IMG/VR virus record: IMGVR_UViG_3300013101_001348
Span: 1 to 20,293 of that record
Reading direction: 5' to 3' (one strand)
Length of the DNA: 20,293 bases
Source of the DNA: a virus
Below are positions 5 through 19,104 of the stretch, one piece after another. The notes under the pieces are model-generated. The model worked only from the letters and a program-made list of their open reading frames with translations. It ran no database searches and was not told the DNA's origin. The translations under genes were made by a program, and so were the position numbers. Within the stretch, counting starts at the first letter, position 1; each line of letters opens with the position of its first letter.

Positions 5-1561
5 ATGAGCATAACAAATTATACTAATTGTATTAGAATAGAAAGAACAGATGGAGTTGTGCTTTGTATAACAGAATTAGATAAAGATTTAGAAATAAAT
101 GACTCTGTACTAGGATTCACAGCAGCTGAACAAACTTATTTGGCAGCTGCTGGGTATACACCTACTAATATGCAAAGTACTAGTGACAATGCTGTTAATA
201 ATGCTGATATAGAAGGTGTATTATCTGCTGTAGGTGCACAAAGAGAAGATATAATTGGTGGTAGATATGATTTTGCTAAATTACACATATTTTTATGGGA
301 TTATGTAAACAATACTTTAATAAAAAAACTAGGGTCAGGGCATTGGGGAGAAAGCACTTTAAAAGATGGTAGTTATATAGCAGAGTTTAGATCTCTAAGT
401 CAGCAATTACAACAAACAATAGGCAGAACATATAATCCTGAATGTGATGAACAGTTAGGTGGTACTAGATGTACTATAACTTTAGGGTTATTTCCACATT
501 TAAATGGTATAATAACAGCTGATTCTAGTAAAGTATACTTTAAAGATTCTAACTTAACTGAGGCAAATGATTATTGGAATAATTCTTTATTAACTTGGGA
601 TCTCGGAACTGAGAATCCCCTAGTAAGCTCATTAATAGAAGATTATATACTAGCAGATACCAAAATAATTCTACAAGGTGCTATGCCATCTTATATTAAT
701 TTAGATGATACTTACACAATGATAAAAACTGTTATAGAGGATCAAACAGTTACAGAATTAGGAACTACAACTCAATTTACAGACTCTAATAGAACAGAAC
801 CTGATAATTATTTTAATAATATGACTTTAGAGTTTACATTAGGTAATAATATAACAGAAACGTTTATTGTAACAAGTTTTATTAGTAATGAGTTTACATT
901 AAATATTCCAGCATCTTTTCCTATAGAAGCATTAGATGAATATAAAGTAATACACACTAAATCTGGTAGCGTAACACATGATGCAGCATCAAAAATAAAA
1001 ATACAAGATAATACATTATCATCAACTAGTTATATAGGTATGTATGCTGAATTTAACTCAGGCTTAAATGAGGGTGAATTTAGATTAATAACTGCACATG
1101 ATACTGATGATGATATAATTACAATACAAACAGCTTTTGATCATAATATTTTAAAAGATGATACATATACAATAATTAATGTAGGTGATACACATATGGC
1201 ATTAGGTGAAGTAACAGGATTCACTGATAATGCTACTTTTACTGCAACATTAACAAATACAGGTACTTATGGGGATGATTATTTTAATTATGGTAAATTA
1301 TTATTTAAATCAGGGTTAAATGATGAAATACATATGGAAGTAAAGGATTTTATAGAAGATTTAGGTGACCCAACAAATCAACAATTTATTTTATTTTTAC
1401 CTATGTCTTTTAATATAGCTATAGGTGATACTTTTCAAGTATTTGCTGGTTGTGATAAAAAGTTAGAAACATGTAAAACAAAGTTTGTAAATATTGAAAA
1501 CTTCCAAGGTTTTCCATATGTACCAGGAATAGATCAAATATCTTTATTTGGTGGACAATAA
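5..1561 (+). CDS. Tail hub protein, DUF2163/BR0599 family (GTA gp13-like)
   Basis: This 518-residue protein probably forms the hub between the tail tube end and the tail-tip protein. The N-terminal DUF2163 part (about residues 1-160) shows family motifs such as YTPTNMQSTSD (51-61), the GRYDFAKLHIF stretch (86-96) and LQQTIGRTY (135-143). The C-terminal BR0599 part shows AGCDKKLETC followed by NFQGFPYVPG (about 481-508). Cys147, Cys156, Cys483 and Cys490 are placed like the four cysteines that hold an iron-sulfur cluster in related phage and GTA hub proteins; cluster binding here is inference. Between the two parts lie four degenerate repeats (about 165-480), where relatives usually have one such unit, so the protein is longer than usual. 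The ATG at 5 forms an ATGA with a TGA at 6-8, which may be the end of an upstream gene outside the window. The peptidase and megatron genes directly downstream fit the GTA-type order. Confidence 0.88.
   Translation: MSITNYTNCIRIERTDGVVLCITELDKDLEINDSVLGFTAAEQTYLAAAGYTPTNMQSTSDNAVNNADIEGVLSAVGAQREDIIGGRYDFAKLHIFLWDYVNNTLIKKLGSGHWGESTLKDGSYIAEFRSLSQQLQQTIGRTYNPECDEQLGGTRCTITLGLFPHLNGIITADSSKVYFKDSNLTEANDYWNNSLLTWDLGTENPLVSSLIEDYILADTKIILQGAMPSYINLDDTYTMIKTVIEDQTVTELGTTTQFTDSNRTEPDNYFNNMTLEFTLGNNITETFIVTSFISNEFTLNIPASFPIEALDEYKVIHTKSGSVTHDAASKIKIQDNTLSSTSYIGMYAEFNSGLNEGEFRLITAHDTDDDIITIQTAFDHNILKDDTYTIINVGDTHMALGEVTGFTDNATFTATLTNTGTYGDDYFNYGKLLFKSGLNDEIHMEVKDFIEDLGDPTNQQFILFLPMSFNIAIGDTFQVFAGCDKKLETCKTKFVNIENFQGFPYVPGIDQISLFGGQ
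497..1444 (+). repeat. Four degenerate ~75-residue repeats inside the hub gene
   Basis: At protein level the hub residues about 165-240, 250-317, 325-392 and 400-480 line up as four units. Each has an N-terminal strand, a D-YF/YW-N-L-x-F patch (for example NDYWNNSLLTW, DNYFNNMTLEF and DDYFNYGKLLF), a segment of about 30 residues, then a hydrophobic-P-hydrophobic strand and a D-x-Y/F-x-V/I end (DDTYTMI, DEYKVI, DDTYTII, GDTFQVF). The last unit leads directly into the conserved AGCDKK motif, as the single unit does in ordinary BR0599 proteins. The DNA copies have diverged, so the expansion is old. Confidence 0.65.
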
Positions 1562-1562
1562 T

Positions 1563-1973
1563 ATGATAGATAGTTTAATAGAAGAAGCTAGAAAATATTT
1601 AGGAGTTCCTTGGAAACACCAAGGTAGAAGTATGAAAGGTGTTGATTGCGTTGGATTTTTACTATTGGCATTTAAACATATAAATGTTAATATTATAGAA
1701 ATAAAAGGGTACTCTAAGTCACCTGATGGTATTGCATTAAAGAAAATAATGGATGAACAACCTAATTTAAAACGTGTGCATTATCCATATTTACCTGGTG
1801 ATGTAGTATTATTTAGAATTAGAAAACACCCACAACATGTGGCTTTATTAACAGGTACGAAAGAAAACTTAAAAATGATACATTCTTATAATGGTGGTGC
1901 AAAAAAAGTCATAGAACATGATTTTGCCGAATACTGGAGAAATAAGATAGTATCTGTTTATAGATTGGTATAA
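1563..1973 (+). CDS. NlpC/P60-type peptidoglycan peptidase of the tail tip
   Basis: This is a 136-residue cysteine peptidase of the NlpC/P60 fold, the GTA gp14-like tail peptidase. In this family the enzyme cuts peptide stems of peptidoglycan so that the tail can cross the cell wall. The catalytic Cys29 lies in GVDCVGF, the His in HPQHVALLTG (His92) and the third polar residue in MIHSYNG (His107). The N-terminus (MIDSLIEEARKYLGVPWKHQ) matches the usual EARKYLGxPWxHQGR opening. An in-frame TTG lies upstream at 1548, but it is inside the hub gene. The ATG at 1563 sits one base after the hub stop with a GGTGGA ribosome-binding site at 1550-1555, so ATG was chosen. The position between hub and megatron is the canonical one. 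Confidence 0.88.
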   Translation: MIDSLIEEARKYLGVPWKHQGRSMKGVDCVGFLLLAFKHINVNIIEIKGYSKSPDGIALKKIMDEQPNLKRVHYPYLPGDVVLFRIRKHPQHVALLTGTKENLKMIHSYNGGAKKVIEHDFAEYWRNKIVSVYRLV

Positions 1974-1977
1974 TAAC

Positions 1978-4900
1978 ATGAGTAATGGTCAAATTTTTGG
2001 TTCAGTACTTGGTGCTGCCATAGGGTTCTTTTTTGCACCTGCTATTATAGGTACTGGCTTAGTGGCCACTGCAGCAGGTGCAACGTCTTTAGGTTTTACT
2101 ATAGGTGGCTTGATAGGTGGATTATTAGATCCATTAGAAAATACAGTAACACAAACAGGTCCTAGACTTGGTGACTTAAGTACACAAACAGCAGAATGGG
2201 GAACACCTATACCTAGATTATTTGGCTCTTATAAATTAACTGGAAATGTTATATGGTCTATGGATTTGCATGAAACTAAACATGTAGAAGAATCTGGAGA
2301 AGGTAAAGGTGGTGGTGGTACAAAAACTGAGACTATTTGGTATTCTTATGCAGGATCATTTGCTGTAAGTTTTAGTGAGGGTGAAATAGCAGGTATTAAA
2401 AAAATATGGTTTGATTCAGTTTTAGTATATGATGGGACTCATTATTCAGGTGGTTTAAGTAATGGTAATCATACAGTGTATTTAGGCAATTCTAGCCAAC
2501 CAATAGATTGGTATATGGATAATGGTAATACTCCAGCATATAGACACGTTTCTTATATTATATTTAGAAAAATAGAATTAGAAAATTATGGAAATAGAAT
2601 ACCTAAAGTAAGTGTAGAAGCTTATTCAGATGGTGATTTAAATGACTTTCAGGAAGTATGGACACAAAATATACCTAATTTAGCACCAGCTATAGACCAA
2701 GTATCTACGTATACACAAGTATTAAATTTATTACCACAAAATGGGTATACTAATATATATAATAAACACCATGATAATAATAGTTTTGATGATTATAATT
2801 TAGTCCCATTTTCTACAATAGTTTATGATGGAAATACAGATGTAGATGTTGAATTCTTTTCTCATAATTATTTACAAGTAGATAATACAAAAGATAAATA
2901 CTATTATTTAGGGACAGCTAACGAAAGTTTTATAAATTACATATATATAAACGGGGCAAAAGTATTAAGTGGTGCTAGAAGTGAGTTAGGCACTGATCCT
3001 GGCAACCCTTTTTATACTGTGTATAGAAACGACATGGCTTATGGGTTTTACCACAATGGTGAACCTAATATAACTACTAATACAATAGTAAAATACTCAG
3101 AAAAATTAAGCCCCAGTAATAGTCCCTATGGTAGTATGGGTATAGTAATTTCTGGCAATGAATATATGCATATAGCTGTTGGTAGCAATGAATTATACAC
3201 TTTTAATATGACTAATGATACTATAGATGTCTTTAATTTAAATGGTGTATATTTAAGAGCTATGGATCATTCAGATTTTACTTTTACATTTACTATAGGA
3301 ACCCCACAATCAGATACTTACTTAAAAACATATAATGATGGGGAAGTATTTGTCTTTAAGTGGGAAGATTCTAATAGGCCACGTATTTACAGAATAACAG
3401 ACACAACACAAGAATATATAGGTAAATTAGGTTCAAAAGGATCAGACTACCCAGGTTGGATAAATACATTTGAATATAAAGATAATTTTTTCTATGTGTG
3501 GGATCCAGACACCTCAGGGCATGAAGATTACTCAATTTATAGAATTTTTGGTAAAAGCCATAATGATACTAAAGTAGATATAGGTTATATAGTTAGAGAA
3601 TTACTACTAAGAGCTGGTGTAGAAGATTCATCTATAGATGTCGGTGATAGTCAAGATTTAGTTACAGGATATGTAGTAACTAAACCTATGAGTACACGAG
3701 CTGCTTTAACAACTTTAATATCGGCATATAATTATGAATTAGTAGAAACGGATTTTAAAATAGTTTTAAAAAAGAGAGATCCAACTAATATACAAACCAC
3801 TATATCTGATTTTATAGAGTTTACAAAATTATATAGATTACAAACTGTTGAACTTAGTAGATGTATTAATATAATGTATGCTAATAAAAATAAAAACTAT
3901 GATGCTGGTATTCAAACTTCAGTAAGAAATGATCATAATACTGAAAATACAAATACATATCAATATCCACTAGCTTTATCTGATACAGAAGCTAAGCAAA
4001 TATCAGAAATATATTTGTATAATGAATGGAATGGTAGATTAAAATTTGAGTTTACAATAACTATTGATTATATATGGTTAATACCTTCTGATATTATTAA
4101 AATAATATATTTAGATGATACTTATATTGTAAGACTGACTAAATTAACATATAGTACTAATAAACAAATAGATTGTGAAGCTATATTAGAAGACCCAACT
4201 ATTCAATTATCAGATTCTATAGGTAGTGATACTGGTAGTGCAAAGGATGAAGTAAGCATAATAGGCCCAACCAATATGTTATTACTAGATATACCTATGC
4301 TAGACAATAGTTACAATAGTGAAGGCATTTATATAGCAGCAAATTGTTATTTTTCTGACTGGAAAGGTTGTACTATAGATAAATCTACAGATACTAAAGT
4401 AACATATTCTACTATAGGACAATTAACAGCAGGTAGTATTATAGGTATTGTTAAAGATATATTACAAGATGGTACTACATATGTTTTGGATATTGATAAT
4501 CAGGTTACAATAGATATAACTATAGGTGAAATATATCAAATAGACTATATTACTTTATTGAATGCATATAATTATATACTCATAGGTGATGAAATACTTC
4601 AATATCAAAATTATATAATTAATGGTGACGGATCTTATACTTTATATAATTTATTACGTGGTAGACGCGGTACAGAATGGGCAACTAATACACATACTAT
4701 AAATGATAGATTTGTGTTTTTAGATACTAGTATGTTATTCGATGTAACAGCATCTCTAAACGCAGATAGCTACTATAGGCCAACAACTTTTGGTACATAT
4801 ATAGAAGATTCTGAAAATTATTATATCTCACCTGAAATACGGTGTTTAAAGCCACTATCCCCTAGATATATTAGAGGTTATAGAAATATTAGTGGTGATT

Positions 4901-5154
4901 TAATAATTACATGGATGCGCAGATCTAGAGATGTTACCGGATATATGAAGACTTTAGCTTTATTTGAAGAAACTGAAGAATATGAAATAGTAATAGGTGA
5001 TGATGTTAGATTATTAACCTCTACGTCTGAAACAGTAACATATACGGCAAGTGATCAAAGTGATGATTCATTACTTGGTTTACCTGTAGAATTAACTATA
5101 TATCAATTATCTGGTACCGTAATTAGAGGGTACGGAACGGGAGCAATACTTTAA
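1978..5154 (+). CDS. Megatron-like tail-tip/host-specificity protein, copy 1
   Basis: This 1058-residue protein resembles the central tail-tip proteins of GTA-like siphophages (GTA gp15; phage-tail_3-type). Order: a Gly/Ala-rich hydrophobic N-terminus with GxxxG-type spacing (1-50); a conserved block starting at TGPRLGDL (60-67) through the NRIPKVSVEAY region (about 60-216); an insert rich in aromatic beta strands (about 217-530), possibly a beta-propeller; the conserved IGYIVRELLLRAGV to LKKRD block (535-601) and the following region to about 745; LLRGRRGTEWATNTH (892-906); and a fibronectin-III-like end from LKPLSPRYIRGYR (957-969), with GDLIITWMRRSR. It stops where ordinary family members stop and has no LamG tail. 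The start is 4 bases after the peptidase stop with no clear ribosome-binding site, so re-initiation is likely. Expected roles are sealing the tail tube, contacting the envelope and helping DNA passage; these come from the family. Confidence 0.87.
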   Translation: MSNGQIFGSVLGAAIGFFFAPAIIGTGLVATAAGATSLGFTIGGLIGGLLDPLENTVTQTGPRLGDLSTQTAEWGTPIPRLFGSYKLTGNVIWSMDLHETKHVEESGEGKGGGGTKTETIWYSYAGSFAVSFSEGEIAGIKKIWFDSVLVYDGTHYSGGLSNGNHTVYLGNSSQPIDWYMDNGNTPAYRHVSYIIFRKIELENYGNRIPKVSVEAYSDGDLNDFQEVWTQNIPNLAPAIDQVSTYTQVLNLLPQNGYTNIYNKHHDNNSFDDYNLVPFSTIVYDGNTDVDVEFFSHNYLQVDNTKDKYYYLGTANESFINYIYINGAKVLSGARSELGTDPGNPFYTVYRNDMAYGFYHNGEPNITTNTIVKYSEKLSPSNSPYGSMGIVISGNEYMHIAVGSNELYTFNMTNDTIDVFNLNGVYLRAMDHSDFTFTFTIGTPQSDTYLKTYNDGEVFVFKWEDSNRPRIYRITDTTQEYIGKLGSKGSDYPGWINTFEYKDNFFYVWDPDTSGHEDYSIYRIFGKSHNDTKVDIGYIVRELLLRAGVEDSSIDVGDSQDLVTGYVVTKPMSTRAALTTLISAYNYELVETDFKIVLKKRDPTNIQTTISDFIEFTKLYRLQTVELSRCINIMYANKNKNYDAGIQTSVRNDHNTENTNTYQYPLALSDTEAKQISEIYLYNEWNGRLKFEFTITIDYIWLIPSDIIKIIYLDDTYIVRLTKLTYSTNKQIDCEAILEDPTIQLSDSIGSDTGSAKDEVSIIGPTNMLLLDIPMLDNSYNSEGIYIAANCYFSDWKGCTIDKSTDTKVTYSTIGQLTAGSIIGIVKDILQDGTTYVLDIDNQVTIDITIGEIYQIDYITLLNAYNYILIGDEILQYQNYIINGDGSYTLYNLLRGRRGTEWATNTHTINDRFVFLDTSMLFDVTASLNADSYYRPTTFGTYIEDSENYYISPEIRCLKPLSPRYIRGYRNISGDLIITWMRRSRDVTGYMKTLALFEETEEYEIVIGDDVRLLTSTSETVTYTASDQSDDSLLGLPVELTIYQLSGTVIRGYGTGAIL
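4650..4682 (+). repeat. 33-bp exact repeat, copy in megatron 1 (RGRRGTEW motif)
   Basis: These 33 bases are identical to 7784-7816 in the second megatron gene. They encode the core of LLRGRRGTEWA, including CGT and CGC arginine codons that are uncommon in this A+T-rich DNA. The same motif in the third megatron (near 11766-11800) uses different synonymous codons. Confidence 0.9.
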
Positions 5155-8100
5155 TGTCAGGGAATACAATAGGTGGAGTGCTAGGTGGAGTAATAGGTTT
5201 TATGGTTGCTGGTCCAGCTGGTGTACAATACGGTTTTGCTATAGGTAGTATGGTTGGTGGTTTATTAATGCCAGATACTGTAGGTCTACAAGACCAAAGT
5301 GGACCAAGACTTAGCGATCTAAAAGTAACTACATCTACTTATGGTTCTCCAATGGCTAGAGTATATGGATCTTATAGAATTGGTGGTAATATTATTTGGG
5401 CTAATAATATAAAAGAAACTAAACATGTAGAAGAAGTGGAAGTTGGTAAGGGTGGATCAGAAACTTATGATGTTATAACATATACCTATTCTATTGATAT
5501 GGCATTAGCTTTATGTGAGGGCCCTATTGGTGCTGTAAAAAGAATATGGGCAGATAGTGTATTAATATATGATGAAGCAAATAAGAAAAGAAAAGATGAT
5601 CTATCTATAAAAATATATTTAGGTACTAGTGATCAACCTGTAGATTGGTTTTTACAAGGTTATAAATCTAATTCACCGGCATATAGACACACAGCATATA
5701 TAGTGTTTAATAATTTTCAATTAGCTAAGTTTGGTGATAGAATACCAAATATAACGGCAGAAGTAATAACTGTAGCAGAAAAAAACTTTGGTGTAGTACA
5801 TTCATTTAGATTACCTTTTATATCAAGCAGAAAACAGGCTGTGACAAATGTAAGACCAATAAATAGTAAAATACATTATGTAGAAAATTATTATAATAGC
5901 GATATATATAAATATGTGGCTGTAGAAAATGGTGTTTTTATACCTGAAGGGGTAGATACTGGATATGTTGCATCAAATGGTAATTATAGTCTTATATCAA
6001 ATATAATTATACATGAGAATAGATATTTTGGTTTAGAACATAGAGGTACTTATGTTGCAATTATAGACATACCTTCAGGTAATGCGGTAGCTTATTATCC
6101 GACTGGTATACATATTGATGCTTATGCTTATGTTGATGGTGATTTTTATGTATATAGTAGAGCAGACGCAGGTAGTGGTGGGTATAAAACTTATTCAACA
6201 ATAAGTAAACTTAAGGGTGGTGATCCTTCCTTAATGGTACCAACACCATCTTATTATCCGGAGTGGACTATAGGTGATGATCCATTGATAAATACTATGT
6301 ATGTTAGTAGAAATAATGAAATATATACGTTACAAAAGAATGGTAACTACTCTTCTAATATATTAGTATTTAATAGAAATGCTGCATTGATTAATACCAT
6401 CTCTACTTCGGAATACCCATTATTTATAAGTGACGATTCACAAGGTAGAGTAAGACTATCTGAAGAGAATGGTTTTGTATATGCATACACATGGTCAGGT
6501 AATCCGACAAATAATAAATTATATAGATATTCTAATACCACACAAGAACTTATAACTAATTTATTATATACATCGTGGTATTCACATTATGGAGAAAAAT
6601 TTGAAGTATATGATGGGATTATTTATATATGGGATAATAATCTTAGAACAGATGCCAATGGTGAATTTACATTAATAAGAGCACAAAGAGATTGGTATAC
6701 GGATGGATCTACTACTACTCTGGCAAATATTTTAATTGATTTATTTGAGGATTCTAATTTACAGGATTATGATGTAACAGCGGCAGAAAGTATAATAGTT
6801 AAGGGTTTTGTAATATTACAAACATCAACTGCTAGGTCCAGTATAGCTGTACTACAAAGTATTTATAACTTTGATTTAGTTGAAGAAGATTTTCAAATAA
6901 TTGTTAAAATACGTGGTGAAGAATACATTAAAGAAATTAATAATGTCTTAAGTGTAAATACAATAAGGAAATTAGATACAGAATTACCACAGAGAGTAAC
7001 TGTAGCTTATGCAAATCATAGCTTAGATTATCAAATAGGGACACAATCAACACTAAGAACAGATGGTAATAGTGATAATAATTTAAAAATGGAATTCCCT
7101 GCTGTATTGTCTGATACAGAAGCAAAACAACTGTCAGAAACATTAATGTATAGAAGCTGGTCTGAGAAGATAAGTATTGACTTTATTATACCTATGGACC
7201 CAACCTTAAAAGTATCTGATGTAATTTTATTAATACATGATAATGCTTCATATATAGTACGTGTAGTAACTATTATATTAACTACTAATAAAACAATGGA
7301 ATGTACTGGATTAAATGAGGGATCATATGTATCAGAAGCTATAGGCTCTGATACATCTGCAGGTTTTAACGATCAAGAATTATATATACCAACTGTTACT
7401 GATTTAAAAGTATTTAATGCACCAACATTGGATAATGCTGTTGTTTCATCTTATGGGTTATATACTGCAGCTAATGGTTATGATGATACTTGGAACGGGT
7501 GTGAAATATTTAAATCAACTGATTCAGGATTAAATTATTCAACTTTAGGTGTAATATTGAATCCTATAGGTGTTGGTAGTGCTCATAGCAAACTACAGCC
7601 AGGCCCAACTACTATATGGGATTTAGAAAATACTGTAACAGTTTATGTACATAATTATACATTAACAGATACAACATTTGAAAAATTATTAATGGGTGAA
7701 ACTAATAATGCTTTAATTGGTAATGAAGTAATACAATATATGTATGCACAAAATAATGGTAATGATACATACACACTTAGTACTTTATTACGTGGTAGAC
7801 GCGGTACAGAATGGGCTATTGATACACATGAAACATATGAACTTTTTGTTAATCTAACTACTGAAGTGCAATTTGCACCATCAACTATAAATACTATCAG
7901 GCATTTTAAGGGTGTTACTTTTGGTACTTATTTAGATGACACAGAAACAATAGCTAAGTTGTATGATGGTACTAATCTCAAACCTTTATCACCATCATAT
8001 GTTAATAGTATAGTAGTAAATGACTATGATATAGAACTAGACTGGACAAGAAGAAGTAGATATATTTCAGGATATTTTAGATCACCACCTTTAATAGATA

Positions 8101-8984
8101 CACCTGAATTATATAATATTGATGTATATTTCTTTAACACATATAAAAATACATACCAATCCAGTACTAGTACATTTACATACACAAAACTTATGCAAGA
8201 TGATGATAATATAGTTTCTGATACAATTATTGAATTTAGAATATCACAACAAGGTGCTTTAAAAGGTTACAAAACTGTTTATAAATTTTATGGTAATATA
8301 CCAACACCCGAACCTATTGGATATTGGAAATTAGATGAAGATGATTACAGTAATCCAGCAGTAGATTCTATAGGAAATAATCATGGTAATTATGTATATG
8401 ATGTAGCACCATATGTTAGTTTAATTGATGATGATGATGGGCACAGTATGTATAATATGTATAATACTACAAATGGTGGTGTTCTTACCAATAATAATAA
8501 TATATTTTCAATAAACACTACTGGAGAGTTGTCTATATCTATGTATATATACTTAATGACAAATGATGCATTTCTTATGGGTAAAACATCAAATAATAAG
8601 GAGTGGGGGGTATATATATTTAATAATGTAATTTTTGGGTATATATATAATAGTAAAGCTACTTCAGTAAATTTAGCTGTTGAAACATATCCAATACTTA
8701 TAAAAAAGATATATCATGTAGCTGTTAATTTTACAGGATATACTGGTTCAGATGAAATTGAAATATATATAAATGGCATAAATATAGTTGATCCAACAAA
8801 AACGCATAGAGCTGGTTCAAGTTACTATAGTTTAAGTGCACCATTAGCTATAGGGTATGGTCAAACGTCTGGTGGTAGCACTGTCAAAGGTAGAAATTTT
8901 ATTGATGATGTTAAAATATTTGATAAAGTTTTACCTGAATGGTATATATCTGTATTAGCAGATAAAAGGAAGGAGATACTTTAA
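5154..8984 (+). CDS. Megatron-like tail-tip/host-specificity protein, copy 2, with LamG-like C-terminus
   Basis: This 1276-residue protein is a paralog of the flanking genes. It has the Gly-rich hydrophobic N-terminus (1-40), SGPRLSDLKVTTSTYG (49-64), the ALALCEGPIGAVKRIW block, RIPNITAEV (196-204), an aromatic-rich insert (about 205-515) with propeller-like strands (NEIYTLQKNG; FVYAYTWSGN; LYRYSNTTQE), the conserved central block (about 523-745), LLRGRRGTEWAIDTH (878-892) and the fibronectin-like region from LKPLSPSYV (942-950). Beyond the usual family end it adds a concanavalin/LamG-like domain (about 1053-1270: IGYWKLDEDD; HVAVNFTGYTGSDEIEIYING; IDDVKIFDK). That domain suggests sugar or surface binding. 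The ATG overlaps the previous stop as TAATG, with GGGAG at 5139-5143 as ribosome-binding site, so translation is probably coupled to copy 1. Confidence 0.85.
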   Translation: MSGNTIGGVLGGVIGFMVAGPAGVQYGFAIGSMVGGLLMPDTVGLQDQSGPRLSDLKVTTSTYGSPMARVYGSYRIGGNIIWANNIKETKHVEEVEVGKGGSETYDVITYTYSIDMALALCEGPIGAVKRIWADSVLIYDEANKKRKDDLSIKIYLGTSDQPVDWFLQGYKSNSPAYRHTAYIVFNNFQLAKFGDRIPNITAEVITVAEKNFGVVHSFRLPFISSRKQAVTNVRPINSKIHYVENYYNSDIYKYVAVENGVFIPEGVDTGYVASNGNYSLISNIIIHENRYFGLEHRGTYVAIIDIPSGNAVAYYPTGIHIDAYAYVDGDFYVYSRADAGSGGYKTYSTISKLKGGDPSLMVPTPSYYPEWTIGDDPLINTMYVSRNNEIYTLQKNGNYSSNILVFNRNAALINTISTSEYPLFISDDSQGRVRLSEENGFVYAYTWSGNPTNNKLYRYSNTTQELITNLLYTSWYSHYGEKFEVYDGIIYIWDNNLRTDANGEFTLIRAQRDWYTDGSTTTLANILIDLFEDSNLQDYDVTAAESIIVKGFVILQTSTARSSIAVLQSIYNFDLVEEDFQIIVKIRGEEYIKEINNVLSVNTIRKLDTELPQRVTVAYANHSLDYQIGTQSTLRTDGNSDNNLKMEFPAVLSDTEAKQLSETLMYRSWSEKISIDFIIPMDPTLKVSDVILLIHDNASYIVRVVTIILTTNKTMECTGLNEGSYVSEAIGSDTSAGFNDQELYIPTVTDLKVFNAPTLDNAVVSSYGLYTAANGYDDTWNGCEIFKSTDSGLNYSTLGVILNPIGVGSAHSKLQPGPTTIWDLENTVTVYVHNYTLTDTTFEKLLMGETNNALIGNEVIQYMYAQNNGNDTYTLSTLLRGRRGTEWAIDTHETYELFVNLTTEVQFAPSTINTIRHFKGVTFGTYLDDTETIAKLYDGTNLKPLSPSYVNSIVVNDYDIELDWTRRSRYISGYFRSPPLIDTPELYNIDVYFFNTYKNTYQSSTSTFTYTKLMQDDDNIVSDTIIEFRISQQGALKGYKTVYKFYGNIPTPEPIGYWKLDEDDYSNPAVDSIGNNHGNYVYDVAPYVSLIDDDDGHSMYNMYNTTNGGVLTNNNNIFSINTTGELSISMYIYLMTNDAFLMGKTSNNKEWGVYIFNNVIFGYIYNSKATSVNLAVETYPILIKKIYHVAVNFTGYTGSDEIEIYINGINIVDPTKTHRAGSSYYSLSAPLAIGYGQTSGGSTVKGRNFIDDVKIFDKVLPEWYISVLADKRKEIL
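7784..7816 (+). repeat. 33-bp exact repeat, copy in megatron 2
   Basis: This is the second copy of the 33-base identity with 4650-4682, covering the same reading frame and motif. Flanking bases differ on both sides. It is the longest exact stretch I noticed shared by the megatron genes. Confidence 0.9.
8970..8975 (+). promoter_or_regulatory. Strong ribosome-binding site for megatron copy 3
   Basis: AAGGAG lies nine bases before the ATG at 8985, inside the last codons of copy 2. It is a better match to the ribosomal anti-Shine-Dalgarno sequence than the sites before copy 1 (none clear) or copy 2 (GGGAG). Confidence 0.75.
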
Positions 8985-11900
8985 ATGGCAGCAATAGCCG
9001 GCTCAATAGGAGCTAGTATAGGGGCAACAGCTGCTGGTACATTTGGTTGGACAGCGGCTACTTGGTCTCAAATAGGTTGGGTGGCAGGTGTATTAATAAG
9101 TAATTATTTACTAGCACCAGACGGACCAGAAGTAATTAATACTGGACCTAGATTAAATGACTTAAAAGTTACTACATCTACATATGGTATGGATATACCA
9201 AAAGTATTTGGATCATATAGAATAGCAGGTAATATAATATGGGCATTACCACTACAAGAAACAAGGCATGAAGAAACAGAAGAAGAAGGTAAAGGTGGTG
9301 GTGGGGGTTCCACAACCACTATATGGTATACATATGCAGCTTCTTTTGCTATAGCTTTATGTGAAGGACCTATATCTGGTATAAGAAAAATATGGTTAGG
9401 TAGTAAATTAGTATATGATCTATCAAACGATGGATCATATAATGATTTTTATCAAAGTGGTAAATTAAATGATCATGTAACTATTTATAATGGTAGTAGT
9501 TCTCAGGCTATTAATACTACTATACAATCGGACAAAGCTGATACACCTGCTTATAGGCACACAGCTTATATAGTGTTTAATGACCTACAATTAAAAGATT
9601 ATGGAAATATTATACCTAATGTAACTTGTGAAGTTGTTAAAAGTGGTAGTACTAGTTCTAGCATGTTGGTTAATTCTAATTATTTACCTAATTTTGTAGT
9701 AGATTGGAATATTATAACAAATTATGTAAATAATTATATGTATACTTTTGTTGGTTTATGGGATAATGGTTATTCTACACATAATTTTGATGTATATAAA
9801 TCAATAGACTCTGCAGAAAATGCAACATTATATAAAAATATAATTGTAAATACAGATAATAATAATAATTTAATGTGGGATAATAATCTAGAAACTTCTA
9901 CTGATACAATTAAAAATGTGACTAGTGTATTTTCTAAAGAACCAGCGTATATACTATACTGGTCAGATGATGATTATTATAGATTTTACGTGTACAATGA
10001 AGATGGTTTAATGTCTCCTAGTTATTCTTCAAGCTATCCAGACCCTTATTATGATGATGAAATGTACCCGGGAGGTCCCGGGTACATTTTAGATAAAAGT
10101 ATAGGATACAATGAAAGTCACACAAGGGCTTTTGTAAAAAGCTATTCTGATATATTTTTAACTAGAAATCATACAGATTGTTATATAATGAGAATATCAG
10201 GTAGTCAATTTTATGATGTAATTGATCCAACATTATTAACAGATGTATATGAAACTTTTGTTGGTGATAATGAGATTTATACCTTAAACAGATCTGCTAA
10301 TTTGCGATTAATACAGATAAAAATATATGACTTTAATGGCAACCTATTAAATACTTTGGATATAGAAACTGATGGTGACATTTGGAGAGATTTATCATCT
10401 GCTGATTTCTTTTCAAGATTATTTAGTTCAGAAGATGGGCAACTTTATGTTATAGGTGCTACTGATATGGATTTGCATTTAATAAATACTAATACAGGCT
10501 CTTATACTTTCTTTAAAAATACACTCCCAAATGGAGATATAATTGAAGAAGCTTATAAATATGGTGGTTACACAATTAAAAGTGGAATATTTAATCAATA
10601 TTTTCCAAGTCTTAATACAGCAGTAGAAAAGCATCAAATAATAACTTATAATGCTTTAGCATCTAATAGTATATTATTAAACACAATAGTAGAAGAATTA
10701 GAATTAGAATCAGGACTTACTGATAGTGATATAAATAATACAGAAGGTGCAGAGACAAATGTAACTGGATATGTTGTAACAAAAAATATGACTGCCAGAG
10801 CTGCTATAGAACCTTTACTATCAGCATATGAATATGATCTAATAGAGCTTGGTTTTAAAGTAGTTTTAAGAAAAAGAAACAAAGATGCTGTAGAAGATAT
10901 ACCTGCAGAGTATTTGGGTGCAAATATAGATTATAATATAGAATATAATGTTACCCAAGAAATAGATTTAATAAAAAGTCTTACTATAAAATATGCTAAT
11001 CCTGATTCTGATTATCAAATAGGTGTACAACAAGCTAGAAGAATAGATACTAAAGCCACTAATGAAATAATAACTGAATTACCTTTAGCTTTTACAGATG
11101 ATGAAGCCAAGCAGTTAGTTGAAAAAACTTTATATAGAAATTGGTTAGAAAGACAAAGATTAAAATTTAATTTACCAATAATTTATAGGGATTTAATAGT
11201 AAGCGATGTTATTAATATAGAATTTGATAATTTTATTAAAAATGTTAGATTAACTAAATTAACAATAACATCTGATAATGTTATTGAATGTGAAGCTTTA
11301 GCTAACAGCTATGATATATTTATATCAGACTCAACAGGTACTAATACAGGTGGTAATGGTGGAACTATATCTGAAGATATAGGGGATACTTTATTTAAGG
11401 TATTAAATATACCAACACTATATAATGAATATATAAGTACGGAAGGAATGTATATTGCAGTTTCTGGTGTACTTGGTGGCTGGTCAGGCTGTACTTTACT
11501 ATCTAAATCTACAAATGCTGATGATTTAACATTAGATGCAACTGTACTTGGTGGTACGGGTATTGGTTTAGCTAATAATGTATTAAGTGACCATACTACA
11601 AATACCTGGGATATAACTAATTCAGTTACTGTATCTAGTACTGTAGAATTATTTGAACGAGATGATTTAATAACTAATGGATCTAATTATATACTATTAG
11701 GTAATGAGATATTACAATATGCTACTGTTGTAGATACTGGCAATAATATATATACATTAAGTAAATTACTGCGGGGTAGACGAGGTACAGAATGGGCTAC
11801 AGGTACACACAGTACTGGAGAAGTTTTTGTATTTTTAGATCAAAATGCTTTTGCATTTAATACTAGTTCAATAGGTAGTAATAAGTATTATACAGCTATA

Positions 11901-13001
11901 TCATTAAATACTACAGTTGTTGAACCAATAATTCAAAAGTATAATACAGGTACTAACTTAAAACCTTTTAGTCCAGCATATGTAAGATATATTAGACAAA
12001 ATATTGAAGATATTTATGTTACTTGGATGAGAAGAAGTAGGTATATAAGAGGTAGATTTCAAACTTTACCTTTATCAGAAACTATAGAAGATTATAATAT
12101 AGATATATATTATTTAGGTGAATTTCTAATTAACTATACAACTAATGATCCAAACTTTACATACACAGGAACCCAACAAGAATTAGATGGGGTTGTAACA
12201 GCAGGTGATAGGTTAGAACTATATATTAGTCAAATATCAGAAATATATGGTAATGGTGAAACAACATACTTAGATGTTGCAGATATTGATATAACTAAAG
12301 AAAATATGATAACATACTTTAAGTTAAATGAGTATAATTTAAGTGATAATTTAATAATGGCGGAAGAAATCAGTAACTTAGATGGAGAATTCTTAACAAC
12401 TAGTGCACCTTTTGTATCTTCTGCACCATTAGTAAATATTGGAGGATTTAGCCCTCAATTTAGTCATAATGGTTCCAAAAGGGTAGATTGCAATAATTCA
12501 AATATATATTCTATAGCAACAACAGGTGAATTAGGCATATCATTATTTTTTAATGTAGCTTCAAAGTATTCAACTAGATTTCTAATATCAAAAGCTGCAA
12601 CTAATAAAAATGAATGGAAGATATTTTTTAATGATGGAGTTACTAACCATCTAAATATAGGATTATATACAGTTAGTGGTACTGAAATTAAAAGAATAAA
12701 ATTAGATAGTACAGGTTTTGTATTAGGTAGTACTATATACCATTTAGTAGTAAATTTTACTGGATCTACGTATAGTGATGATATACTTGTATATGTAAAT
12801 GGAATTAAACAAACTTATACTACAATTACATCTAGTAATACATACACAAATAACGGCAGTACTGCTACTATGCAGATAGGTGGTGGTGGTGTTAATGCAG
12901 CTAGTGGATCTCAATTTGATGGACAAATTGATGATGTAAGAATATATAATAAAGTAATACCAAAAACACAACGTGATGCTTTATACGCAATGAAAGCTTA
13001 A
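8985..13001 (+). CDS. Megatron-like tail-tip/host-specificity protein, copy 3, with LamG-like C-terminus
   Basis: This 1338-residue protein is the third tandem paralog. It has a hydrophobic Ala/Gly-rich N-terminus (1-45), TGPRLNDLKVTTSTYG (53-68), a glycine run after EEEGK (about 101-108), the FAIALCEGPISGIRKIW block, IIPNVTCEV (209-217), a long aromatic and Asn-rich insert (about 218-560), the central conserved block (about 565-775), LLRGRRGTEWATGTH (928-942) and the fibronectin-like part from LKPFSPAYVRYIR (992-1004). A LamG-like domain follows (about 1107-1330: FKLNEYNLSD; HLVVNFTGSTYSDDILVYVNGI; IDDVRIYNK) and is homologous to that of copy 2. The start directly abuts the previous TAA and has a strong AAGGAG at 8970-8975. 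Copies 2 and 3 share more N-terminal residues with each other (KVTTSTYG, GNIIWA, ALCEGPI) than with copy 1. Confidence 0.86.
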   Translation: MAAIAGSIGASIGATAAGTFGWTAATWSQIGWVAGVLISNYLLAPDGPEVINTGPRLNDLKVTTSTYGMDIPKVFGSYRIAGNIIWALPLQETRHEETEEEGKGGGGGSTTTIWYTYAASFAIALCEGPISGIRKIWLGSKLVYDLSNDGSYNDFYQSGKLNDHVTIYNGSSSQAINTTIQSDKADTPAYRHTAYIVFNDLQLKDYGNIIPNVTCEVVKSGSTSSSMLVNSNYLPNFVVDWNIITNYVNNYMYTFVGLWDNGYSTHNFDVYKSIDSAENATLYKNIIVNTDNNNNLMWDNNLETSTDTIKNVTSVFSKEPAYILYWSDDDYYRFYVYNEDGLMSPSYSSSYPDPYYDDEMYPGGPGYILDKSIGYNESHTRAFVKSYSDIFLTRNHTDCYIMRISGSQFYDVIDPTLLTDVYETFVGDNEIYTLNRSANLRLIQIKIYDFNGNLLNTLDIETDGDIWRDLSSADFFSRLFSSEDGQLYVIGATDMDLHLINTNTGSYTFFKNTLPNGDIIEEAYKYGGYTIKSGIFNQYFPSLNTAVEKHQIITYNALASNSILLNTIVEELELESGLTDSDINNTEGAETNVTGYVVTKNMTARAAIEPLLSAYEYDLIELGFKVVLRKRNKDAVEDIPAEYLGANIDYNIEYNVTQEIDLIKSLTIKYANPDSDYQIGVQQARRIDTKATNEIITELPLAFTDDEAKQLVEKTLYRNWLERQRLKFNLPIIYRDLIVSDVINIEFDNFIKNVRLTKLTITSDNVIECEALANSYDIFISDSTGTNTGGNGGTISEDIGDTLFKVLNIPTLYNEYISTEGMYIAVSGVLGGWSGCTLLSKSTNADDLTLDATVLGGTGIGLANNVLSDHTTNTWDITNSVTVSSTVELFERDDLITNGSNYILLGNEILQYATVVDTGNNIYTLSKLLRGRRGTEWATGTHSTGEVFVFLDQNAFAFNTSSIGSNKYYTAISLNTTVVEPIIQKYNTGTNLKPFSPAYVRYIRQNIEDIYVTWMRRSRYIRGRFQTLPLSETIEDYNIDIYYLGEFLINYTTNDPNFTYTGTQQELDGVVTAGDRLELYISQISEIYGNGETTYLDVADIDITKENMITYFKLNEYNLSDNLIMAEEISNLDGEFLTTSAPFVSSAPLVNIGGFSPQFSHNGSKRVDCNNSNIYSIATTGELGISLFFNVASKYSTRFLISKAATNKNEWKIFFNDGVTNHLNIGLYTVSGTEIKRIKLDSTGFVLGSTIYHLVVNFTGSTYSDDILVYVNGIKQTYTTITSSNTYTNNGSTATMQIGGGGVNAASGSQFDGQIDDVRIYNKVIPKTQRDALYAMKA
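10060..10089. repeat. Perfect 14-bp inverted repeat inside megatron 3
   Basis: The left arm AAATGTACCCGGGA (10060-10073) and right arm TCCCGGGTACATTT (10076-10089) are exact reverse complements with only GG between them. The CCCGGG cores are striking in this A+T-rich gene. In RNA the two innermost pairs would probably open to give a small loop. The reading frame passes through and encodes MYPGGPGY (residues 360-367), so the peptide itself is almost mirror-symmetric. Only a short T-run follows, so it is a weak terminator candidate. Its role is unknown. Confidence 0.9.
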
Positions 13002-13011
13002 GGAAATAAAA

Positions 13012-13416
13012 ATGACAGTAACAACAAATTTAGAAATGCCATATTTAGAACAAAATGTGGCACAACCAGAAGTACCAGAAAATGAAGTAAAAGATATTGT
13101 AGATGCTGCTATTTGTGGTATTTATACTATTCCTATGTTAGATGGTAATTTTACATTAGATGATTTATCACTAACAGATACAGCATCTTATCCAAGAAAG
13201 TGGCAATATGGTATACTAGTTATTAGTAATCCACACACCGCAGAGACTACTTTAACTTTAGAAGATGATAAAAAAATGATTTATATTATAGATAATACTA
13301 CAGGATGGAATATTATATTTAAAACTGCATCTGAGCCTACAGGTGTAGATATACCTGATGGGGTTGTATATCAGGTCTATTCTGATGGTTCCAATATAAA
13401 AAGAGTAGAAGTATAA
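13012..13416 (+). CDS. Small tail/fibre-associated protein, paralog 1 of 3
   Basis: This 134-residue protein has no certain function. Its N-terminal motif (LEMPYLEQNVAQPEVPENE, then VKDIVDAA) resembles the opening of small phage adhesion-associated proteins such as the DUF2793 type (LPYL-x-Q-x-Q-K-E-x-x-x-N-E-A), but that link is only suggestive. The rest is a beta-rich domain of a kind common at the start of phage tail-fibre proteins, with YIIDNTTGWNIIFKT (91-105) and a closing YSDGSNIKRVEV (123-134). The next two genes carry the same layout. AAGGAA at 13000-13005 is the ribosome-binding site, and the gene follows the megatron 3 stop by 10 bases. A structural role at the tail tip is likely from position. 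Confidence 0.72.
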   Translation: MTVTTNLEMPYLEQNVAQPEVPENEVKDIVDAAICGIYTIPMLDGNFTLDDLSLTDTASYPRKWQYGILVISNPHTAETTLTLEDDKKMIYIIDNTTGWNIIFKTASEPTGVDIPDGVVYQVYSDGSNIKRVEV

Positions 13417-13784
13417 TGGCCACTGAATTTTTAAAAATAGGCTATCTACCCCAAAACGATAGTAAACCATATGAGTATCAAGATGCTGCTAAAGATATAT
13501 ATGATCAAGCAATAGTTGGCTTATTAAATGTTGATATGACTATTGATTTTAATTATACATTAGATAATGATTTATGGAAAAATAAAATATTAATAATAGA
13601 TACAGTACATACAATAGATGTTTCATTATTTGTACCAGATAATGAAGTAATGGTGTATATTATAATAAATAATACTGCTGTAAATATAACTTTTTCAACT
13701 GTTTCTGGGACTGGTATACTAGTACTAGCAGGCACAAAAGGGGAAGCTTATTCTAATGGAACTGATATTAAGGAGATAGTATGA
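13416..13784 (+). CDS. Small tail/fibre-associated protein, paralog 2 of 3
   Basis: This 122-residue protein is a diverged paralog of the genes on either side. FLKIGYLPQNDSKPYEYQD then AAKDIYDQAI (5-33) corresponds to the neighbours' N-terminal motif. The beta part contains VYIIINNTAVNITFSTVSGTG (80-100) and ends in YSNGTDIKEIV (112-122). ITFSTVSGTGI here and ITFSTVAGSGF in the next protein are nearly the same. The ATG overlaps the previous TAA as TAATG. No enzyme motif, signal peptide or membrane segment is visible. The function is not recognised beyond a probable virion part. Confidence 0.7.
   Translation: MATEFLKIGYLPQNDSKPYEYQDAAKDIYDQAIVGLLNVDMTIDFNYTLDNDLWKNKILIIDTVHTIDVSLFVPDNEVMVYIIINNTAVNITFSTVSGTGILVLAGTKGEAYSNGTDIKEIV
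13770..13775 (+). promoter_or_regulatory. Ribosome-binding site for the long fibre-like protein
   Basis: AAGGAG lies five bases before the ATG at 13781, within the last codons of the preceding gene. It supports this start, which overlaps the preceding TGA as ATGA. Confidence 0.7.
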
Positions 13785-15625
13785 CAGTTTATTCAGATAA
13801 TTTAAGGATACCTCATTTAGATTCTGACGTATTTCAACCATACATACCAGAAAACACAGCTAAGGATATTATAGATAGTTTTTTAACTAAAACATATACC
13901 ATCACAACTACTGATCCTACAGCAGATATAACTATTGAACATAGTGACAGCCCATTAGCTGCAGATGATTGGCAGTCTTTTATTTTTGATGTAGTTGAAG
14001 GTATACAATTAACAGCTCCAATCAATGTATTTTTACCTGATTATCCAAGACCTTATATATTTCAAAATAATTGTTCACAATCTATTACTTTCTCAACTGT
14101 TGCTGGTTCTGGTTTTTCAATACCAACCAATGAAAATGCCTATGGATATTGTGATGGTACTGATATAGTTAGATTAAATTTTGCTGCGGATGGTGCGGGT
14201 GCATCATTTGAAAGCTTAAATGATACTCCAGGTTCTGGAGAAATGTTAGCTAATCCATTAAAAAATGTAACAGTTAACTCATCTGGAGATTCTTTGGAAT
14301 ATACAGATGCACCAGTTATTTGGACTGGAATTTGGGCAGATGGAATAACATATAAGTTAAATGATATGGTAAGGGATGGTGGATATCTTGGTATAGTTGT
14401 TGAACCTTTAGGTACAGAGGAGAGATTAGCACCACAAGAAGTAGGTGGTTTACAAGATGGATTTCCTGTTGTAGCAGATTTTACAATAAATAGTAGTGAT
14501 ACAGTTATTACTATGAAACATACATATACTTTTTTACAGGGTGGTTTTGTAAGAGAAATAAATATAATTTTACCAGTTGTTACTGTAGATACTATAATAC
14601 GTGTAACTATTACAAATTTAGCTTCAGGAGAAACTACTGTAGCTGCACCTATTATTACTCCCGAAGTTTGGTATTCTTTAGCTATTGGAAGTATAGCTAT
14701 GTCTATTGGGGCTCAGTATGAGGTTAAAGTTGAATTATATACTTCAGACAGTTCAACAACCTTTAATAATGTTTGGGAATCAGATGTGGGAGTAGGAGAT
14801 CCAACAGATGGAGTATTTAGTATAGACGATGTTAGTACGCCAAGTAGTATAAAAATAGATAATGTAGCAACTAATAGTATTAATTATAGAAGTAATTTAG
14901 ATGATTATGATACTGATAGTATACTTCATATAGTAGAAGAAGGAGATTCTTCAAGAAGTGTTACTGTAAAAATAGATGCAATGGATGATACAGATCCTGA
15001 TTATATTCAATATGATGTTACTGTTTTAGATAATGGCCCTAAAAATTTACGAAATGGTAAAACATCAACCCTAACTTTTCAACAACCAACATCAACATCA
15101 GACTATGCAAAAATAGATAATTATTATGCAGCCAATGAGCCTGACTTTGCTGATATTACTACAGAGCTATTATTAGATGGGGTTGCACAAGCCCCTACTA
15201 CAACAGCATATGGCATTGATATAGTATTTCAACAAGCTTCAATTAGTGATGATTATATATATCTAGCAGTATCTGATTCTTCAGCTTCTTCTTCTAATTT
15301 ATTATCTGGTAAGACATTTCAAAATTATGGTGAAGTTTTAAATGAGCTAGGTGATGTATCAGGAAATCCAGTAGATATTGATATTAAATATGGTAATGTA
15401 GTATCGGCTACTATTATAGGAGATACTACTTTTACTTTTACTACAGATCATGATAATACATCATTTACTTTATTAATAACTGATGGTGATGTATATACTA
15501 TGACCTGGCCAACAATTTCTTGGGATAATAATATAGAACCTACTTGGACTAGTACTAGCTTAGCAACAATTACAAAAATAGGATCTATTTGGATAGGTGG
15601 GGCATTAACCGGTATAGTGACATGA
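13781..15625 (+). CDS. Modular tail fibre/adhesion protein (paralog 3 N-domain plus extension)
   Basis: The 614 residues begin with the same domain as the two preceding proteins: LRIPHLDSDVFQPYIPEN then TAKDIID, YIFQNNCSQSITFSTVAGSG and YCDGTDIVRLN (about 8-133). A linker with the phage-fibre motif F-x-x-L-N-D-T-P (143-150) and VNSSGDSLEYTD (165-176) follows. Next is a stretch like small carbohydrate-binding modules (WTGIWADGITYKLNDMVRDG, 181-200), then about 330 residues of beta-rich sequence without a recognised fold. The C-terminal domain (about 535-612: TTFTFTTDHDNTSFTLLITD; TMTWPTISWDNNIEPTW) is of a type common at phage fibre ends. Adhesion to host glycans or to another fibre part is inferred. 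The gene is coupled to its neighbours by ATGA overlaps at both ends. Confidence 0.78.
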   Translation: MTVYSDNLRIPHLDSDVFQPYIPENTAKDIIDSFLTKTYTITTTDPTADITIEHSDSPLAADDWQSFIFDVVEGIQLTAPINVFLPDYPRPYIFQNNCSQSITFSTVAGSGFSIPTNENAYGYCDGTDIVRLNFAADGAGASFESLNDTPGSGEMLANPLKNVTVNSSGDSLEYTDAPVIWTGIWADGITYKLNDMVRDGGYLGIVVEPLGTEERLAPQEVGGLQDGFPVVADFTINSSDTVITMKHTYTFLQGGFVREINIILPVVTVDTIIRVTITNLASGETTVAAPIITPEVWYSLAIGSIAMSIGAQYEVKVELYTSDSSTTFNNVWESDVGVGDPTDGVFSIDDVSTPSSIKIDNVATNSINYRSNLDDYDTDSILHIVEEGDSSRSVTVKIDAMDDTDPDYIQYDVTVLDNGPKNLRNGKTSTLTFQQPTSTSDYAKIDNYYAANEPDFADITTELLLDGVAQAPTTTAYGIDIVFQQASISDDYIYLAVSDSSASSSNLLSGKTFQNYGEVLNELGDVSGNPVDIDIKYGNVVSATIIGDTTFTFTTDHDNTSFTLLITDGDVYTMTWPTISWDNNIEPTWTSTSLATITKIGSIWIGGALTGIVT

Positions 15626-16407
15626 TTGGTATAAGTAGAAATTTGCAGATGATAGGAGAATATGTATCTGCCCCCTTAATTGGTTATTATAATTATGTTA
15701 TGTCTTTAAGTCCTGATGTATATTGGAGATTAGGTGATTCTATTGGATCAACGGTAGTAGTAGATGAAGTTAGTGCTGATAATGGTAGTTATGTTAATAC
15801 CCCATCTTTAGAACAAAGTAGCTTAATACCAAGTGATTTGGTTAATAAATCTGTATACACAGATGGTATTAGCCAATATATTAATTTAAATAATTATCTG
15901 CCAACTTTAAAACTAGGAAATAATAAAACTATAGCATTTACTTTTTCTACACCAGATTCATTAGTTACTAAAAGCTATATAACCTTTGCGTGTGCACATA
16001 CAGTTGATTCTTCATCATATGATATAATACAAATAGGTTTTTCAAATGGTAGCCCCTTTGCATCTGTTGTTGTTAAAGACGATAGTAATAATACACAAGT
16101 ATATTTGCAATATGGTGGAAATATAGTTCTTATACCAAATACATCATATAACTTAGTACTTATTCAAGATGATGTTTTAGGTGGTAAATTATACTTAAAT
16201 GGTATATACCAAATACCAGTTATAAATGATAGTACGGGTGATGGTACATGGTTTGGAACAAACCAAAGTAGAATCTCATTTCTTATTAATAAGTTAGAAA
16301 GATCAAATATAAATTATTATGAATCTACTATAGATGAATTAATTCTTTTTGATACTAAACTAACAACATATGAAATCAATCAATTAAAATTAGAATATTT
16401 AGGGTAA
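15622..16407 (+). CDS. Stand-alone LamG/concanavalin-like protein
   Basis: This 261-residue protein has a single LamG-like lectin fold from about residue 28 to the end: LSPDVYWRLGDSIGSTVVVDE (29-49), GSYVNTPSLEQSSLI, a KLYLNGIYQIPV strand pair, and IDELILFDTKLTTYEINQL near the end. Phages commonly use such domains for cell-surface binding. An in-frame TTG exists at 15589, but the ATG at 15622 overlaps the preceding TGA (15623-15625) as ATGA, the coupling used throughout this window, so ATG was chosen. Its LamG differs from those on megatrons 2 and 3 in the YWRLGD-type opening and may have a separate origin. It is the last gene before the terminator. Confidence 0.78.
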   Translation: MIGISRNLQMIGEYVSAPLIGYYNYVMSLSPDVYWRLGDSIGSTVVVDEVSADNGSYVNTPSLEQSSLIPSDLVNKSVYTDGISQYINLNNYLPTLKLGNNKTIAFTFSTPDSLVTKSYITFACAHTVDSSSYDIIQIGFSNGSPFASVVVKDDSNNTQVYLQYGGNIVLIPNTSYNLVLIQDDVLGGKLYLNGIYQIPVINDSTGDGTWFGTNQSRISFLINKLERSNINYYESTIDELILFDTKLTTYEINQLKLEYLG

Positions 16408-18505: not shown

Positions 18506-18508
18506 TAA

Positions 18509-18685
18509 TTAATTATCCTCTAATATTTCTTTAACAACTTTACCACAATTAGGGCACTTAGTTGGCTCTGTTGTAGCATCACCTATAGTGAACCATTTAT
18601 AGCATCCAGTACATGTATAATGCTTTAGTATTTCTTTATAAACCCTAAGGCAGACAGTAGAGTCTCTTTTTGTCCTTCTATTCAC
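18509..18685 (-). CDS. Small zinc-ribbon protein (58 aa)
   Basis: This short gene lies between dUTPase and ribonucleotide reductase. It reads GTG start, MNRRTKRDST..., then YTCTGCYKWF (23-32) and KCPNCGKVV (43-51), ending in EILEDN. The two CxxC knuckles (Cys25/Cys28 and Cys44/Cys47), 15 residues apart, form a typical zinc ribbon, with a basic N-terminus that could contact nucleic acid. The GTG forms a GTGA overlap with the dUTPase stop, and its TAA is three bases before the reductase ATG, so it fills the gap exactly and is very likely expressed. Function is unknown; a DNA- or RNA-binding or accessory role are both possible. Confidence 0.8.
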   Translation of the reverse strand: MNRRTKRDSTVCLRVYKEILKHYTCTGCYKWFTIGDATTEPTKCPNCGKVVKEILEDN

Positions 18686-19104
18686 TGTACACCAGAATCA
18701 CCAAAACCACTTTCACCTCTTTCTGTTGGGGATAGTTTATTTACTTTTACCCAAGAATCTAATAAACAAGGTAATATAACTGCTTGACATATTCTATCAC
18801 CTATATTTATTTTAATACTATTATTATCTGATACATTTTTTATAAAAGCTGTATACTCGCCACGATAACTAGAATCACATATACCTACAGTATTCATTAA
18901 TACTAAACCTTTAACACCCAACCCACTTCTTGGTACTATCATAGCAAAATAACCTTCAGGTACCTCTAATTTAAACCCTAAAGGTATTTTACACTCTGTC
19001 TGCGGTGTTAATAAAACTTCTACAGTAGATCTTAAATCCATACCAGCATCTGTTTTATGCTTCTTACTTGGTTTACATACTTCTGTTAATAATTCATACT
19101 TCAT
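18682..19104 (-). CDS. dut: dUTPase (trimeric type)
   Basis: This 140-residue enzyme hydrolyses dUTP to dUMP and pyrophosphate, which keeps uracil out of phage DNA and supplies dUMP for dTMP synthesis. All five family motifs are visible: DAGMDLR (19-25), PRSGLG (58-63), NTVGICDSSYRGEY (71-84, with catalytic Asp77), GDRICQAVILP (102-112) and TERGESGFGDSG (127-138). Motif V has Asp-Ser where many relatives have Ser-Thr, and motif III has Cys before the catalytic Asp; both look tolerable. The length is normal for the family. The ATG overlaps the exonuclease stop as ATGA, and the stop overlaps the zinc-ribbon GTG. Confidence 0.93.
   Translation of the reverse strand: MKYELLTEVCKPSKKHKTDAGMDLRSTVEVLLTPQTECKIPLGFKLEVPEGYFAMIVPRSGLGVKGLVLMNTVGICDSSYRGEYTAFIKNVSDNNSIKINIGDRICQAVILPCLLDSWVKVNKLSPTERGESGFGDSGVQ

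Follow-up and report, generated by a model that had tools for sequence, protein, structure and literature searches.

Why would a phage with a single gene for its baseplate hub have three genes in a row for megatron, the large protein of the tail tip? This question is raised by a 20,293-base virus fragment from IMG/VR (IMGVR_UViG_3300013101_001348; "the window" refers to this whole stretch), which is cut off before it reaches Dit. An earlier analysis of the DNA and its open reading frames (the sequence-only reading) had noticed the three genes, which we call M1, M2, and M3, and had proposed that they encode either a 1:1:1 heterotrimer or alternative tips with different host ranges. We found that divergent viral contigs share one such triplet. 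The best explanation is that M1-M3 have diverged to become the three subunits of a single trimeric tail tip, a 1:1:1 heterotrimer, and we give this explanation an even chance of being correct.

M1, M2, and M3 follow one another in the same orientation, downstream of one hub gene and one NlpC/P60 gene (Table 1). M1 and M2 share one base (TAATG), M2 and M3 abut, and the list of open reading frames shows no internal stops. These frames and junctions bear out the earlier description of three full-length tandem copies (1058, 1276, and 1338 residues) with coupled starts. It is also correct that no copy has decayed: all three frames are open, and PF13550 and PF23666 score above the Pfam cut-offs in each. 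(The same is true of all six copies from the related contigs L180 and L181, described below, for a total of 9/9.) M1-M3 each match phrog_4271 as well, at about E 1e-150 or better, and they are 32-43% identical to each other over the aligned stretches (BLASTP E 1e-41 to 1e-141). Because of the Pfam, phrog_4271, and BLASTP scores, the paralogy of M1-M3 is far beyond chance.

A profile of M1-M3 matches the megatron of the Rhodobacter capsulatus gene transfer agent, RcGTA (6tba_8A; E 1e-55, residues 3-206 and 766-1295), and the megatron of R4C (8gtc_M; E 7e-51). The iris/penetration and adhesin-like N-terminal domains align to both megatrons, and so does the C-terminal part. A structural model of M1 is similar to 6tba_8A (Z 32.8, root mean square deviation 2.7, 351 residues aligned) and to 8gtc_M (Z 29.0), and its next structural matches are the tip proteins of the phages JBD30, Chi, lambda, and T5. 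(The mean predicted local distance difference test score, or pLDDT, of this model is 66, and it is unreliable at residues 220-397, where pLDDT is under 50.) The model also supports the fibronectin-like C-terminal region that had been proposed. The gene order of hub, NlpC/P60, and megatron is found in the window, L180, and L181. Overall, M1-M3 are firmly members of the Rcc01698-type megatron family. As for the motifs that all three copies were said to keep, GPRL-DL and LLRGRRGTEW are present in M1-M3, but the CEGPI block is present only in M2 and M3 (M1 has SEGEI).

L180 (IMGVR_UViG_3300013101_000113) and L181 (IMGVR_UViG_3300013101_000164) match the window in gene order, with the hub and NlpC/P60 followed by three megatrons. 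(M3 of L180 ends at residue 933, where the contig ends.) Hub and NlpC/P60 are single genes in all three phages, and Dit is a single gene in L180 and L181. Over 685 core columns, copies at the same position are 42-52% identical, versus 31-41% for copies at different positions. In a phylogenetic tree, M1, M2, and M3 form separate clades with one sequence per phage (support of 100/100, 100/100, and 98/100), and trees for the iris and adhesin-like domains, the central domain, or the C-terminal part, each alone, recover these clades (support of 86/91 to 99/99). The clade supports of 98/100 and above are from a 17-row tree that includes L183 in a wrong frame (35 stops); the tests that follow are from a repeat without L183. 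A tree constrained to unite the copies within each phage is rejected (approximately unbiased test, p-AU of 5e-32, 1e-53, and 1e-6), and independent triplication in each phage is thereby rejected. The nine triplet megatrons also form one group apart from the single-copy outgroups (100/100). Given the ortholog clades and the rejection of the own-copy grouping, there was therefore a single triplication before the three phages diverged. Judging from the sequences, copy identity and order is retained since then, without visible conversion or domain shuffling.

An assembly artefact is ruled out, as three different contigs agree. The evidence supports the claim that the three paralogs are intact and co-expressed, and the orthologous triplets in two further phages strengthen it. 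The sequence-only reading had also suggested checking whether the extra copies are often broken or absent in related phages. Within the triplet lineage they are not broken (the frames in L180 and L181 are open), but more distant relatives are single-copy.

Might M1-M3 be the product of a recent amplification, redundant and with no roles of their own? Tandem duplication costs little, and it arose independently in at least three lineages. But this triplication is older than the split of phages whose orthologs are 42-52% identical, and all nine frames are open and are diverging separately, so redundancy is highly improbable. The same comparison bears on the idea that the copies assemble together in no fixed order, which would give a population of mosaic tips. 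All copies have the same core domains, their genes overlap or abut, and fresh duplicates would mix by default. On the other hand, random mixing does not require that the three phages conserve copy identity and order over the full length of the core, as they do. There are also fixed copy-specific residues, which are most common in the adhesin-like domain of M1 (13 of 155 columns), although with three sequences per group this pattern is only suggestive. We consider random mixing to be quite unlikely.

Homologous baseplates contain three hubs and three megatrons (PMC10276861). In RcGTA, the hub and the megatron contact alternate subunits of the hexameric Dit, which gives three megatron sites (PMC7296036). 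In RcGTA and R4C, the central domain of megatron docks to Dit and the hub, the C-terminal region is the binding site for fibres, and the iris that closes the channel consists of three N-terminal helices; these helices are thought to open an outer-membrane pore (PMC7296036, PMC10276861). In the window, L180, and L181, the iris, adhesin-like, central, and C-terminal parts are kept in all nine open frames. Since the docking and iris parts are present in every copy, all of the copies should compete for the same three sites. The number of paralogs equals the number of ring positions (three), and each copy is orthologous across the relatives. Because there are three order-locked paralogs and three sites per tip, a 1:1:1 heterotrimer is the simplest explanation.

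Alternatively, the copies might be divided by level, with one copy ringing the hub and the others forming lower trimers or decorating the tip or the tube (up to nine megatrons). Tips of the T5 type do have different trimers stacked below the hub, and phages with two or three copies could differ simply in the length of the tip. But the central domain that docks to Dit and the hub, and the iris that plugs the channel, are in every copy, and none has lost the docking part. We put little weight on a division by level.

The copies do differ outside of the core. Laminin_G_3 (LamG) ends M2 (E 1.8e-10, with the C-terminal piece searched alone) and M3 (E 2.8e-12), and M1 lacks it. Even among orthologs, there is hardly any conservation in the peripheral region (12-22% identity), and M3 of L181 lacks a peripheral domain. 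A model of this protein is a complete core (pLDDT of 82; Z 31.4 to 6tba_8A). For the large peripheral domain of the RcGTA/R4C type, with its carbohydrate-binding part, there is no Pfam match in M1-M3; the M1 model is poor there, and the domain is optional in the relatives. A beta-propeller was suspected from weak WD40 matches, but we do not claim it, as no stretch passed alone and the model is poor. Across the family, megatrons range from about 740 amino acids (Tetraselmis viridis virus S20, apparently with no peripheral domain) to over 1500; the Alteromonas phages R9Y2 (L092) and R7M (L090) were among those compared. This range of lengths suggests that the peripheral region is an insert that can be exchanged within the megatron family.

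Differences in the peripheral domains and in the C-terminal LamG are what would be expected of receptor modules, and this would fit alternative tips. Each copy would then form its own homotrimer, with different host ranges, and there would be three kinds of particle per burst or one kind would dominate under given conditions. At 31-41% identity, the paralogs may have lost the ability to mix, and other phages have a stable two-copy state. But we have several pieces of evidence against alternative tips. First, the array contains no long, well-matched inverted repeat, only chance-like AT-rich ones, and there is no recombinase gene within the window (which is a fragment, so a distant one is possible). 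Second, the domain trees agree, so the core domains were not swapped between copies. Third, both megatron junctions are TAATG overlaps or abutting in the window, L180, and L181, which is consistent with coupled translation; start-stop coupling at both junctions would tie the copies together rather than let one dominate. Fourth, a tip made of L181 M3 alone would have no peripheral domain. Alternative tips are unlikely in our view. Of the two models that had been proposed, the heterotrimer is the better, given the fixed order, the lack of core-domain exchange, the single hub, and the three positions per tip.

How might a 1:1:1 heterotrimer have arisen? We propose that the lineage of the window phage, L180, and L181 acquired its triplet from one ancestral megatron gene before these phages split. 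Each copy would have retained its core parts from the iris to the C-terminal region, and translation along the array would be coupled by the start-stop arrangement. One M1, one M2, and one M3 would then fill the three places of the ring on a symmetric hub. Symmetry would be broken at the contact with the host, where the peripheral domains differ and two of the three subunits carry LamG, and the tip could present several binding surfaces at once. All of M1-M3 would be present in one virion, at 1:1:1, with a role in binding receptors. A stricter form of this proposal is an obligate, ordered heterotrimer on the symmetric hub; its iris would be a hetero-iris, and two of its subunits would bear LamG lectins. 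In this form, an ancestral homotrimer would have become a broken-symmetry machine that was kept in the lineage. We hold this form tentatively, as its chance is somewhat short of even.

How common are such arrays? In best-hit samples (which are not a census), 137 of the viral_contigs loci with at least one full-length megatron are single-copy and 2 have three copies. At the loci where a neighbour would be visible, the counts are 65 with one versus 2 with three. In genome_contigs, 53 loci are single-copy (41 with visible neighbours). Among 20 annotated phage records that we inspected, 14 have one copy and six have two: Caulobacter phages C1, CcrColossus, and CcrPW, Brevundimonas phages Bambus and Kikimora, and Erythrobacter phage XM05. 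None of the phage-collection records listed has more than two megatron places. That relatives normally carry a single megatron, as had been claimed, holds as a rule, but several Dolichocephalovirinae and XM05 have two. Recovering the triplet relatives from viral_contigs required alignments as queries: scans of viral_contigs with M2 alone or M3 alone gave no matches, and scans with the ortholog-group alignments returned L180 and L181 only. The triplet looks rare within viral_contigs. A 2012 paper already described the duplication of megatron in Colossus, and it also reports the detection of the single phiCbK megatron in virions (PMC3556154). So tandem megatrons were already known, and their duplication in CcrColossus published, but three-copy arrays were not known, as far as we found; the new point is the shared triplet. 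Our literature search turned up no heterotrimeric tail tip.

The apparent two or three matches in L013, L014, L016, L019, L033, L056, and others come from genes that are split rather than from full copies in tandem. At L013:9147-14781 (and in L014, L016, and L019), megatron is split over several genes: a lone 205-amino-acid iris and adhesin-like gene is followed by a 543-amino-acid gene with its own iris and adhesin-like domains and then by a 545-amino-acid gene with the central and C-terminal parts. Two iris modules per central module would likewise break three-copy symmetry.

Some observations weigh against the 1:1:1 heterotrimer. A two-copy state persists in Dolichocephalovirinae, where the A and B copies form ortholog clades across Caulobacter and Brevundimonas phages. 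Duplicated megatrons are thus stable at two, and the copy number there cannot be 1:1:1. We know of two triplet relatives, which come from a single metagenome set, and the contig of one of them ends within M3. The number of fibre-type paralogs behind M3 also varies from three (three in the window and at least two in L181).

Table 1. Features of the window.
Feature	Positions	Strand	Details
Baseplate hub	5..1561	+	518 aa, single copy; PF09931 E 2e-35, PF09356 E 6e-26
NlpC/P60 tail peptidase	1563..1973	+	136 aa, single copy; PF00877 E 9e-12
Megatron M1	1978..5154	+	1058 aa, without LamG; PF13550, PF23666; phrog_4271 E 1.5e-150
Megatron M2	5154..8984	+	1276 aa; PF13550, PF23666; C-terminal LamG at about 8466-8936
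Megatron M3	8985..13001	+	1338 aa; PF13550, PF23666; C-terminal LamG at about 12519-12962
S1, short fibre-type protein	13012..13416	+	134 aa; phrog_12796 (tail fiber) E 1.7e-4
S2, short S1 paralog	13416..13784	+	122 aa; 36% identity to S1, E 1e-20
S3, probable fibre	13781..15625	+	614 aa; S1-like first 130 residues and long C-terminal part
ORF (open reading frame) directly downstream of S3	15589..16407	+	272 aa; no Pfam or PHROG match

S1, S2, and S3 are adjacent paralogs (13012-15625) with a common 130-residue N-terminal domain. (Residues 1-132 of S3 are 30% identical to S1 and S2, and S3 has no Pfam match.) The sequence-only reading had overlooked this mutual paralogy, as well as the LamG domains that end only M2 and M3 and the unconserved peripheral domain. 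One weak PHROG match and the position of the genes suggest that S1-S3 are fibre-type proteins. A profile comparison of the S family to the DUF2793-type fibre adaptor was not significant. In L181, the gene after M3 is 46% identical to S1 and the S3 ortholog is 38-40% identical; S2 was not seen in L181. One fibre per megatron, an idea prompted by the three S genes of the window, was therefore rejected as a rule. In the single-copy relatives L182 and L222, one megatron is followed by one fibre-type gene. (L182, a viral contig with 27% GC and a single megatron, also has two adjacent ankyrin-repeat proteins at 18506-19955 on the - strand.)

The window hub has four cysteines (147, 156, 483, and 490), which are at equivalent places in the L180 and L181 hubs. 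The RcGTA hub has iron-sulfur ligands (PMC7296036), and the cysteines of the window hub probably correspond to them. The hubs vary in length, with 518 amino acids in the window (5-1561), 662 in L180 (2504-4492), and 281 in L181 (5554-6399). The difference is extra sequence in the oligosaccharide-binding region, between the two pairs of cysteines. To the eye, this insert resembles a variable number of units of about 70 residues; a BLAST self-comparison detected no repeats.

The window also has a convergent nucleotide-metabolism block (16454-20000, - strand), with a B12-dependent (class II) ribonucleotide reductase, a dUTPase, and a 5'-3' exonuclease. The reductase is 50-55% identical to proteins from marine roseophages and uncultured phages.

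Finally, we compared the triplet to known systems. RcGTA Rcc01698 (g15; PDB 6tba/6teh) and the R4C megatron (PDB 8gtc) have the same gene order and core domains as M1-M3 and match them in predicted fold. But each is a single gene and a C3 homotrimer, whereas the window has three genes. Also, we detected no counterpart by sequence in M1-M3 for their large peripheral domain, and that region is unconserved and sometimes absent. Since the tip is homotrimeric in the solved homologous baseplates, a heterotrimer would be a natural example of a shift from homomer to heteromer in a viral injection ring, and one tip could bear a different receptor module on each subunit. The pairs in Dolichocephalovirinae (CcrColossus gp122/gp123, Caulobacter phage C1, Bambus, and Kikimora) are likewise tandem, overlapping or abutting, full-length, and in ortholog clades (two), but they have two copies and arose by an independent duplication. 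Erythrobacter phage XM05 also has multiple (two) full-length megatrons in one gene run, but with a fibre gene between them, and again the duplication is independent. Together, the two-copy and three-copy phages make the origin of ring complexity directly testable, and the conserved triplet turns the heterotrimer from a guess about one contig into a testable proposal. Within phages, proteins of similar structure are already known to occur together in a trimer: the cement heterotrimer of phage T1 has one gp48 and two gp49 (PMC11945409). It differs in that it is a capsid decoration rather than a tail tip, is 2:1, and occurs alongside homotrimers. A similar pattern is found outside of phages, in the PCNA of Sulfolobus, where a homotrimeric ring protein was replaced by three co-inherited paralogs and the heterotrimer was shown experimentally (PMC8357120). 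PCNA is unrelated to megatron, so this is an analogy only, but a heterotrimer of M1, M2, and M3 would be the same kind of change.

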